Shown here piece by piece: positions 6,631 to 39,270 of a DNA stretch of 64,000 bases (positions are counted from its first letter, which is position 1; the number at the start of each line of letters is the position of its first letter). Source of the DNA: Arminella tubonensis (GTDB taxonomy: Bacteria > Pseudomonadota > Alphaproteobacteria > Rhizobiales > Rhizobiaceae). The stretch is taken from NCBI RefSeq assembly GCF_003240585.1, contig NZ_PCDP01000001.1, positions 372,001 to 436,000 on the forward strand. Reading direction: 5' to 3'. Under the pieces are notes generated by a model. That model was not told where the DNA came from, ran no database searches, and was given only the letters and a program-made list of their open reading frames with translations. The position numbers and the translations under genes are program-made.

Positions 6631-6721
6631 TGGCGGAGAGGAAGGGATTCGAACCCTCGATACGCTTTTGACGTATACTCCCTTAGCAGGGGAGCGCCTT
6701 CGGCCACTCGGCCACCTCTCC
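6631..6721 (-). tRNA. tRNA-Ser (anticodon GCU)
   Basis: On the minus strand the sequence opens with acceptor GGAGAGG, continues TGGCCGAGTGG (D arm), anticodon stem CTCCC with loop CTGCTAA and GGGAG, a long variable arm (TATACG...CGTAT), the T arm GAGGGTTCGAATCCCTTC, acceptor strand CCTCTCC, discriminator G and an encoded CCA. The loop centre gives anticodon GCU, reading AGC/AGU serine codons. The long variable arm is diagnostic of a class II tRNA. Length is 91 nt including CCA. Confidence 0.97.
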
Positions 6722-37559: not shown

Positions 37560-37896
37560 CATGGCAACTGGTCGGGCGGAACGATCGCCCGGCCATTTCC
37601 TCGTCAAGGCAAATCCAGTTTTAACAGCGCGTACACCCTGTTAGCCGCCAAATTGAAGTACAGGTGCGGCATTATGGCACTAAGCCTCTATGCCACTTGA
37701 CTTTTTCGCAACTTGGAGCGATCTCTCGCGATGTGAAAGACATTATGCTTTCACGCCGATCAACCGGAGTCATCTTACGATGCCTAGCGACAGTAGTAGT
37801 CGATTGCCTTTGCCGTCAGCGGCGTTCGTGCAGTAACCGACTCCTGTCGGCTCGCCACGATCTGCCGCGACGGCGGATCGACGGAAAGGCGAGCAA
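37560..37896. other. mgtE upstream region and 5' leader
   Basis: 337 bp between the quinone reductase-like gene and mgtE with no credible gene. It holds several potential hairpins, including GTGAAAG/CTTTCAC at 37733-37754 and the ribosome-site hairpin at 37850-37894. No promoter hexamers stand out. Confidence 0.6.
37850..37894 (+). promoter_or_regulatory. Leader hairpin sequestering the mgtE ribosome-binding site
   Basis: Outer stem GCTCGCC (37850-37856) with GGCGAGC (37888-37894) is a perfect 7-bp pair. The inner stem CGATCTGCCG (37858-37867) with CGGCGGATCG (37871-37880) pairs over 10 bp with one G-U, closed by a 3-nt loop. The outer 3' arm ends 2 bases before the mgtE ATG and covers the purine-rich GGCGAG ribosome site. 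Such an arrangement could act as a translational switch, possibly responding to Mg2+ (inference). Confidence 0.55.
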
Positions 37897-39270
37897 ATGA
37901 ACATCAACAGCTTACCCATTCGGGCCGGCCACGCTGCCCGTAATCTCATCAACGAAGGCCGCGGAATAACCACTGCCGAGCGGGTCGAACGCTTGAATGC
38001 GCTCGATATCGACGAGGCAGCACGCACCCTTGCAGCACTCCCTCTGCAGAAGGCGGTCCACGTGCTCAACCGGCCGGAGCTGCACAATGCGGCGGCCATC
38101 CTCACGCAGATACTGCCGGAGCATGCGGCAAAGCTCCTGAACGCCACGGCCAACGACCGCGTCGCCGACATCTTTCTCGAGATGGACGACGATGTGCGCG
38201 CGCCGCTGCTCGCGCGACTCGACAACGCCACCCGTCTCGCCATCCAGAACCTGATGGGCTACCCGCCACGGACGGCGGGCAGCATCATGACGACGGAGTT
38301 CGTCAGCGTGCCGGACAACTGGACCGTCGGGCAGACGCTCGACCATGTTCGCCAGGTCGAGCGTTCGCGCGAAACCGTCTATGCCATCTACGTACTGGAT
38401 GCCCTAACTCAGGCATTGACCCATGTCGTGACCTTGCGGCGGCTGATCAACGGTGCAAGCGATGCGTCCATCCTGTCCGTCGCGCAGCTCGGCGAGCCGG
38501 TAACGGCGCGTCCACTGATGAAGCAGGAGGATGTTGCAAGGCTCATCCGCAAGCATAATCTGCTGGCCCTTCCGATCGTTCAGGATGACGGACATATGCT
38601 TGGCATTGTCACGGTCGACGACGTCATCGACACGATGATCGCCGATACCACCGAAGACGCCCAGAAGTTCGGCGGTATGGAGGCGCTCGGCAAGCCGTAC
38701 ATGCAGATCGGTTTCGCCGGTATGATCCGCAAGCGCGCCGGCTGGCTCGCTGCCCTCTTCCTCGGCGAAATGCTGACCGCCAGCGCGATGCAGCACTTCG
38801 AGGGGGAACTCGAGAAGGCTGTCGTGCTGACGCTGTTCATCCCGTTGATCATGAGCTCGGGCGGCAACTCCGGTTCCCAGGCGACATCGCTGATCATCCG
38901 GGCGCTGGCGCTTGGCGAACTCAAGCTTTCCGACTGGTGGCGGGTAATGCTGCGCGAACTGCCCACCGGCGTCGTGCTCGGCGCGATCCTTGGCATGGTC
39001 GGCTTTGCCCGTGTCGTGCTCTGGCAGACCACCGGTCTATTCGACTACGGGCCGCATTGGCAGCTCGTCGGGCTCACCGTCTTTGCGGCACTCATCGGCA
39101 TCGTCACGTTCGGGTCAATCTGCGGGTCTATGCTGCCGTTCATATTGCAAAGGCTGCGCCTCGATCCCGCCAGCGCTTCGGCACCGTTCGTCGCTACCCT
39201 TGTCGATGTGACCGGACTGGTGATCTACTTCAGCGTCGCTTTGGCTATTCTCAGCGGCACGCTTCTCTGA
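37897..39270 (+). CDS. mgtE: Magnesium transporter MgtE
   Basis: A 457-residue Mg2+ channel. The N-terminal MgtE_N superhelical domain (residues about 30-130: ARTLAALPLQKAVHVLNRPE, ILPEHAAKLLNATANDRVAD), tandem CBS domains (about 135-255: AGSIMTTEFVSVPDNWTVGQ, LPIVQDDGHMLGIVTVDDVI) and five membrane helices follow. The signature SSGGNSGSQATSLIIRALAL lies in the pore region. In characterised MgtE proteins Mg2+ binding to the CBS/N domains closes the channel. The gene is preceded by a structured leader and followed by a terminator. Confidence 0.93.
   Translation: MNINSLPIRAGHAARNLINEGRGITTAERVERLNALDIDEAARTLAALPLQKAVHVLNRPELHNAAAILTQILPEHAAKLLNATANDRVADIFLEMDDDVRAPLLARLDNATRLAIQNLMGYPPRTAGSIMTTEFVSVPDNWTVGQTLDHVRQVERSRETVYAIYVLDALTQALTHVVTLRRLINGASDASILSVAQLGEPVTARPLMKQEDVARLIRKHNLLALPIVQDDGHMLGIVTVDDVIDTMIADTTEDAQKFGGMEALGKPYMQIGFAGMIRKRAGWLAALFLGEMLTASAMQHFEGELEKAVVLTLFIPLIMSSGGNSGSQATSLIIRALALGELKLSDWWRVMLRELPTGVVLGAILGMVGFARVVLWQTTGLFDYGPHWQLVGLTVFAALIGIVTFGSICGSMLPFILQRLRLDPASASAPFVATLVDVTGLVIYFSVALAILSGTLL

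Follow-up and report, generated by a model that had tools for sequence, protein, structure and literature searches.

The window analysed here, a stretch of 64,000 nucleotides from Arminella tubonensis, carries on its forward strand the magnesium transporter gene mgtE (37897-39270). Its product harbors MgtE_N, CBS, and MgtE domains (Pfam PF01769, 7.6e-38) and belongs to the NCBIfam equivalog TIGR00400 (335.4 bits, for a cut-off of 232.75). All the features of its leader described below lie on the same strand. The most upstream is TTGAC (37697-37701), a probable -35 box at a position conserved among leaders: it occurs 71-110 nt 5' of the ATG of a small upstream open reading frame (uORF) in 78 of 86 diverse leaders, as compared to about 10% of shuffles, this promoter evidence covering the -35 box only. 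Near the transcript start expected from TTGAC at 37697 is a 5' hairpin (37733-37754), read directly from the sequence, in which GTGAAAG (37733-37739) pairs with CTTTCAC (37748-37754); a preliminary description of this DNA had already noted this further perfect 7-bp hairpin. This hairpin is backed less well than the one described below that covers the Shine-Dalgarno (SD) sequence of mgtE, its stretch finding modest support in relatives (mean folding z of -1.27 over 78 leaders, 30 of them below -1.5). The uORF (37780-37836) comes next, between the 5' hairpin and the SD-sequestering hairpin. It is preceded by its own SD, GGAG (37766-37769), at a place where an SD-like 4-mer is conserved among leaders, and it comprises 18 codons and a TAA (MPSDSSSRLPLPSAAFVQ; ATG at 37780, stop at 37834-37836). 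A small hairpin in its core, conserved in relatives, joins CGAC (37788-37791) to GTCG (37799-37802).

The segment between uORF and mgtE folds as a two-part hairpin, named here structure A. Its outer, basal stem is a perfect 7-bp helix joining GCTCGCC (37850-37856), which starts 13 nt after the uORF stop in the window, to GGCGAGC (37888-37894). The inner stem (37858-37880) pairs CGATCTGCCG (37858-37867) with CGGCGGATCG (37871-37880) over 10 bp, one of them G-U. The SD zone of mgtE, GGAAAGGCGAGC (37883-37894), includes the 3' arm of the outer stem (37888-37894), and only two bases (AA) separate the end of the hairpin at 37894 from the ATG at 37897. Both stems, and the placement of the GGCGAG ribosome site in a hairpin ending two bases before the ATG, are thus as the preliminary description had given them. 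Folding of the 211-nt leader (37720-37930) yields -77.3 kcal/mol, as compared to -65.9 +/- 4.27 kcal/mol for dinucleotide shuffles, with 1 of 200 as low.

The covariation check that the preliminary description had proposed was carried out on leaders of relatives, and revealed compensatory changes, so that the refuting outcome it had named, a lack of such changes, did not occur. A first alignment of 40 leaders was drawn from 54, after dropping 10 divergent ones, three near-duplicates, and one with a long insert. Within it, 82.7% of the structure A cells are paired and 10 of 17 pairs show double changes; none of 500 shuffles reached the observed covariation, and 15 of 500 reached the number of further pair types. 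A larger set of 88 diverse leaders, sharing less than 85% identity, was aligned by covariance model; 86.4% of its cells are paired, all 17 pairs are doubly changed (186 cells), and covariation amounts to 0.323 versus 0.135 in shuffles (0/500), values that favor structure A in that the alignment was fitted to it. Sliding the partner strand by 1-3 columns brings covariation down to at most 0.065. The basal helix is paired in 94.2% of cells and the inner stem in 80.0%, with double changes in 7/7 and 10/10 pairs, respectively. A chance hairpin was rejected on the basis of the shuffle folding energies and of the compensatory changes in both the 40 and the 88 leaders.

The uORF, which the preliminary description had missed in reading the hairpin alone, was looked for at the 30 best MgtE loci from 151 genomes of the family, and 21 of these loci have it in front of mgtE. 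Its core was not found within ~700 nt upstream of the other nine (L021 and L023-L030), seven of which come from genomes of 1.1-2.0 Mb. A covariance model, built from the 40 leaders (found both through the protein and through a sequence pattern), gave 75 matches in the order, 73 of which contain the uORF frame, three with a TTG start. Of the 88 diverse leaders, 72 have an SD-like 4-mer ahead of the uORF, as compared to 12% of random upstream windows of the same length. The frame is usually 17-20 codons long. As many other leaders were found by the exact core pattern (those from L176 onward; L031-L092 mostly by a shorter exact pattern), conservation of the core was recounted in 21 protein-found and 57 model-found leaders, which also passed the rule defining the whole set of 204 leaders: a second residue P, S, or N, an acidic residue, and R. 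Numbering follows the uORF of the window, some leaders being devoid of the x codon. Codon 2 is Pro in 19 of the 21 protein-found leaders (CCA 10, CCC 5, CCT 4; Ser in the other 2) and in 47 of the 57 model-found ones (CCA 20, CCC 18, CCT 7, CCG 2; Ser in 10). Codon 3 specifies S, G, D, or N, with C as third base in 78 of 78. Among the 52 model-found leaders that could be parsed, codon 4 reads GAC in 51 and, in the remaining one, GAA; AGT stands at codon 5 in 51 and at codon 7 in 46 (AGC, TGT, or CGT in the others), and CGA at codon 8 in all 52. A Pro is found four residues after the Arg in 18 of 19 protein-found and 48 of 52 model-found parsed leaders. A larger codon table, in which 195 of 202 leaders were parsed, agrees with this recount, and in it the x codon varies freely; its "acidic 195/195" and "R 195/195" are true by construction, because parsing takes only cases that fit the rule.

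The CGAC/GTCG core hairpin is present in 21/21 protein-found and 49/57 model-found leaders; covariation cannot test it because its stem hardly varies. Over 73 uORF pairs no synonymous excess was observed (fraction 0.22, for 0.24 expected), so selection on the peptide along the uORF is not supported; for codons 2-8 the fraction is 0.33, for 0.28 expected, with 37 of 300 simulations as high. The near-fixed AGT and CGA codons point to a constraint on the RNA or on the codons of the core. Variants without the exact core exist, such as MPSNDHSRL, MPGESHSRS, MPSDHSRS, MPSDSRYLPS, and frames starting with TTG. The TTG-start leaders L115, L124, and L135 were left out of the set of 204, and some leaders in which the main start had been mis-set (a GTG 5' of the real ATG) were corrected in part. 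To note, the mgtE leader at L105 (1501-1631) has a uORF, MPSDSRYLPSAVGVI, with a shortened core and a lost CGAC/GTCG hairpin. A second leader before mgtE in a genome of the order (L300) encodes MPSDSPTDPARPADIVLTA, without the S-R core and with Pro and Asp kept, as if the start of the peptide might matter more there than the RNA core.

The second half of the uORF offers a competing fold, structure B, equally missed by the hairpin-only reading. In the window, an anti-sequestor strand (37799-37831) pairs with 37854-37882 over 26 bp (-38.9 kcal/mol), through helices formed by GTCGATT (37799-37805 with 37876-37882), TGCCGTC (37811-37817 with 37869-37875), GCGGCG (37819-37824 with 37863-37868), and 37826-37831 with 37854-37860. 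Structures A and B exclude each other because B takes bases of the inner stem of A. RNAalifold, run on the 40 leaders, picked B unprompted, as a fold in which the inner 3' arm is bound by uORF codons 7-9 and 11-13. Double changes are found at the alignment pairs 63:134, 64:133, 65:132, 66:131, and 67:130, and covariation is 0.135 versus 0.057 in shuffles (0/500). On two of five measures the excess is small or absent: 13 further pair types were counted versus 12.7 in shuffles (289/500), and 5 doubly changed pairs versus 3.9 (25/500).

Evidence independent of any alignment was provided by a swap test, in which the uORF segment of each leader was folded with its own downstream segment or with that of another leader. 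With 36 leaders, drawn from 202 of the 204 (gap of 38-95 nt), the native combination reached -31.9 kcal/mol versus -25.5 kcal/mol when swapped, and none of 5000 permutations did as well. Three control pairings, one setting the opening 18 bases of the uORF against that downstream segment and two setting the uORF segment against other targets, remained at chance level (1943, 2269, and 3205 of 5000). Extension to the 88 leaders gave z = -18.1 (0/5000). Each of its two subsets, 51 leaders located before MgtE and 37 without an MgtE assignment, likewise gave 0/5000, the 37 including at least one cut contig that may hold MgtE. The control with the 5' part of the uORF gave 3188, 3595, and 2405 of 5000 for the 88, 51, and 37 leaders, respectively. 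Below 65% identity, where only five leaders make the test weak, the values are 85/5000 for B and 576/5000 for A.

The switch between the two folds was modelled by masking parts of the uORF, in imitation of ribosomes, when the 88 leaders were folded. With nothing covered, the predicted medians are 17.0 B pairs and 1.4 outer-stem A pairs. Covering codons 1-8 leads to 19.8 B pairs and 0.1 outer-stem pairs, and covering the whole uORF to 0 and 10.8; a median of 8.4 outer-stem pairs remains when 12 nt past the uORF stop are covered as well. From the full to the early state, predicted SD exposure rises by more than 0.1 in 44 of the 88 leaders and falls in seven. The leader of the window goes the opposite way (0.22 early, 0.40 full), because 37806-37811 can pair with SD-zone bases 37885-37890. 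In ribosome-free RNA, the best SD-open fold is more stable than the best fold devoid of pairs between uORF and downstream segment in 51 of 88 leaders and trails it by more than 2 kcal/mol in 23; the leader of the window is near balance, with -55.1 versus -56.4 kcal/mol, hence an SD-open fold 1.3 kcal/mol less stable. In these predictions the logic of the A-versus-B switch is clear, and that of SD exposure is less clear.

The leader exhibits the features of a uORF attenuator, namely a short frame ahead of the gene, complete with SD, start, and stop, and mutually exclusive folds, one of which hides the SD. We propose, with a probability of roughly 0.6, that it works as a translational attenuator, controlled by the uORF, of genes for Mg2+ homeostasis, and that it turns mgtE on at low Mg2+. 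Structure A, with its outer and inner stems, would bury the ribosome site of mgtE, while in structure B the second half of the uORF would pair with the inner part of A and leave that site open. A ribosome reading the uORF to its stop would strip the B strand, so that A folds and mgtE is off. A ribosome slowing or dropping off in the first codons (M-P-x-D-S) would free the B strand, so that B folds and mgtE is on. The trigger would be low Mg2+ destabilizing ribosomes on the Pro2/Asp4 start of the peptide, in the way reported for mgtQ of Salmonella and MgtL of E. coli. The architecture itself, a uORF with two exclusive folds, is judged very probable from the comparative data, and for Mg2+ as the signal with the proposed sign the chances are about even. 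We infer that the uORF is translated and that ribosome abortion, and not stalling, is the controlling step. Given that many alphaproteobacteria share this arrangement, in most cases in front of genes for magnesium transport, we regard it as a probable switch for magnesium supply that has not been described before.

The same architecture might serve another sensor, and this is the alternative that survives best, unlikely as it is. Ribosomes would be slowed at the AGT Ser and CGA Arg codons, or by a shortage of charged tRNA, and the leader would report translation state or an amino acid instead of Mg2+. The fixity of these codons in leaders not chosen by the exact core (AGT in 51/52 at the fifth and 46/52 at the seventh, CGA in 52/52 at the eighth) and the absence of synonymous excess in the uORF pairs speak for it; the freedom of the x codon does not, nor does the fact that most downstream genes are Mg2+ genes and not amino-acid genes. 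Furthermore, the fixed bases form the core hairpin in 49 of 57 leaders, which could explain the codons without tRNA sensing. Coupling of the opposite sign, with more uORF translation giving more mgtE because ribosomes that reach the uORF stop would open the 5' arm of A, has a rather small chance of being right. The stop codon lies 13 nt before that arm in the window, and in Salmonella the removal of mgtQ uORF translation is reported to lower mgtB (PMC8092293). Such coupling would, however, have no need of B, yet B covaries, and a median of 8.4 outer-stem pairs would still form with 12 nt beyond the stop covered.

A direct riboswitch for Mg2+ or a metabolite, with a frame falling in the aptamer by chance, is distinctly improbable. 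Magnesium genes are classic riboswitch targets, and the core is strongly conserved. Against this, Rfam yields no match, whether the gathering threshold or E<=10 is applied; the core hairpin, A, and B are the only conserved stems that were seen (as judged without a dedicated aptamer search); and the SD, the start, and the stop, together with a third base left free in Pro codon 2, are consistent with a frame. The uORF-controlled attenuator fits the evidence better. A protein or small RNA that sets the fold by binding the CGAC/GTCG hairpin is the least credible option: the hairpin is kept in 21/21 protein-found and 49/57 model-found leaders, and the codon 3 amino acid varies (S, G, D, N) over a last base that is C in 78/78, but the hairpin is absent from 8/57 model-found leaders and we know of no candidate binder.

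A known RNA family was rejected, Rfam having no match in the leader of the window or within those at 20 loci of relatives. The Rfam 15 scan of the window at gathering threshold gave none in the mgtE leader, and the search of 37600-38000 at E<=10 gave none at all, in line with the preliminary description, which had seen no resemblance to a recognised riboswitch. The scan of 20 relatives' loci returned only a chrB-a RNA and tRNA, neither within the leader. The chrB-a RNA belongs to a Sphingobium locus (L184, 314-391), ~3 kb from the leader, and the sole gathering-level match in the window is a tRNA gene (6634-6721, minus strand). The M-box (ykoK) riboswitch, which is also Mg2+-related and, in M. 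tuberculosis, has a translational platform and a uORF (PMC12810186), has no match in these scans of the window leader and of the 20 loci. The serC, speF, and ybhL leader RNAs are alphaproteobacterial as well, and a serC hairpin is held to hide a ribosome site, but they precede other genes (PMC1273637), and these Rfam families have no match here. The Thioalkalivibrio mgtE motif, a strong riboswitch candidate with 32 representatives found exclusively in that genus, is likewise an RNA in front of mgtE, and its SD and AUG also lie at the foot of a stem; it is set apart by description only, no uORF being mentioned in the available portion of its report (PMC11109978).

Closer parallels come from leaders controlled by small peptides. 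In Salmonella mgtQ, folds 1:2/3:4 alternate with 2:3, the ribosome site is hidden in 3:4, acidic codons are needed, and release of the site is attributed to a uORF translation that is slow or aborted (PMC8092293). Like mgtQ of mgtCBRU, the present leader has a short uORF that overlaps exclusive folds, one hiding the ribosome site of an Mg2+ transporter, and acidic codon(s) near the uORF start. It differs in that mgtQ has 8 codons and lies between mgtC and mgtB, whereas here the uORF usually has 17-20 codons and lies in the 5' leader of mgtE; in that mgtQ has Asp2 and Glu5, whereas here Pro2 is followed by Asp4 as the lone acidic residue; and in having its own probable promoter and a module that precedes many different genes (PMC8092293). 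MgtL of E. coli mgtA senses Mg2+ by ribosome drop-off at EPDP, where Glu2 and Asp4 were tested (PMC11282234), and the same step would operate here. Both are leader peptides before an Mg2+ transporter gene with Pro and Asp4 near their start, but MgtL acts on a Rho-dependent terminator, whereas the output here appears to be SD sequestration, and its motif EPDP shares only Asp4 with the PSDS found here (PMC11282234). Conserved acidic residues number one in the uORF peptide here and two in both MgtL and mgtQ, a point against the proposed attenuator. The leader belongs to neither mgtQ nor MgtL by the features tested, the uORF being set apart by descriptions and peptide motif and not by sequence alignment. 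No description of the element was found in the open-licence PubMed Central papers searched; subscription papers and preprints are outside this scope, so an earlier description is possible. The strings MPSDSSSR, MPSDSHSR, MPSDSSR, and MPSDSPSR are absent from the open-licence papers searched, and the main text of a paper on the S. meliloti small proteome, in its available part, makes no mention of mgtE (PMC10117765).

The element was surveyed with covariance models in three samples, under strict filters by which weak matches are lost. In the order, 70 of 397 genomes gave matches, and 68 genomes in 14 families keep the element after two are discarded as false. In the class and phylum samples, searched with a second covariance model, it is rare. 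The class sample has it in 6 of 385 genomes, that of the window and one from the order included, and the phylum sample in 19 of 299, two of which are kin at phylum level only. Three model matches, L160 and L162 in the order and L298 in the class sample, were judged false since no such uORF was seen. Within the class sample, L296 has a 22-codon frame, L297 a frame without ATG or GTG start, and L299 a weaker leader with a longer frame, as read from the sequence. Searching by pattern is noisy (65 matches versus 13 for a reversed control); a scan of named records with the exact core pattern reached at least 119 loci, each with such a uORF frame. Among the matches listed (the first 80 of at least 119 loci) are Rhizobium, Agrobacterium, Brucella/Ochrobactrum, Methylobacterium, Ancylobacter, Bosea, Labrys, Kaistia, Microvirga, Sphingomonas, Sphingobium, Caulobacter, Phenylobacterium, and Stenotrophomonas nitritireducens, among others. 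The earlier proposal of a new cis-regulatory element in rhizobia, then, holds as to a leader that probably hides the SD, but the element is confined neither to rhizobia nor to mgtE. As to further copies, the window holds one match, the covariance model gives one in the genome of the window, and the exact core pattern occurs at four places in that genome, three of them judged not leader-like. A second MgtE paralogue in this genome (G000:C16:88452-89531), 31% identical, seems to be without leader because the model matched one leader only.

The gene following the leader is MgtE in 132 of 204 distinct leaders, a small membrane protein in 26 (and in 4 more, further away), a NitT-type ABC permease in 11, DUF1003 in 5, and OprB in one, while MgtA lies some way downstream in 4. 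It is unassigned in 21, two of which are cut contigs (L227 and L264) and six of which resemble the ABC permease and were missed by the filter (L107, L121, L130, L215, L251, and L256; Pfam BPD_transp_1 was found at the L107 and L130 loci). The Mg2+ theme is not owed to MgtE alone, because other Mg2+ targets also occur: MgtC at L184 (one of the 21, by a Pfam-domain scan), CNNM at L299, a CorA-domain gene shortly downstream at L296 (below the NCBIfam cut-off and above that of Pfam), and MgtA directly next or in the operon at L171, L200, and L307. For the OprB porin, ABC permease, and small-protein targets, no involvement with Mg2+ is known, which counts against the proposed attenuator. A two-domain NitT-type ABC permease stands behind the same leader at L107, L121, L130, L194, L196, L215, and others, followed at L165 by an ATPase with an AAA_assoc_C domain; it is a candidate Mg2+ system. 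At L114, L131, L136, L140, L142, L150, and others, the leader precedes proteins of ~65-100 amino acids with one apparent membrane span. They share a VF[AV]PxxxxH-like stretch, and the three that were scanned have no Pfam match. The leaders of L212 (Stenotrophomonas nitritireducens), L258, L305, and L306 precede an MgtE 64-66% identical to that of the window, two of the last three coming from genomes related at phylum level only; transfer between classes is possible.

A broader reading, held more tentatively and at a little under even odds, is that one uORF module, M-P-x-D-S-(x)-S-R with its A/B switch, serves as a general Mg2+ sensor, defines an Mg2+ gene regulon, and marks unrecognised Mg2+-homeostasis families. 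The sensor would then extend over much of the Rhizobiales, with scattered Sphingomonadales, Caulobacterales, and Stenotrophomonas, and the regulon would encompass mgtE, mgtA, mgtC, corA-like, and CNNM genes. DUF1003, the NitT-type ABC permease, and the ~65-aa single-pass proteins would be unrecognised parts of Mg2+ homeostasis. If the attenuator proposed here is real, alphaproteobacteria would have an Mg2+ sensor that works through the ribosome, for which a core peptide and two folds with covariation can be named. The Mg2+ logic of Salmonella would have a counterpart, built on a different peptide, in another class, and uncharacterised membrane-protein families would be tied to a probable Mg2+ regulon.
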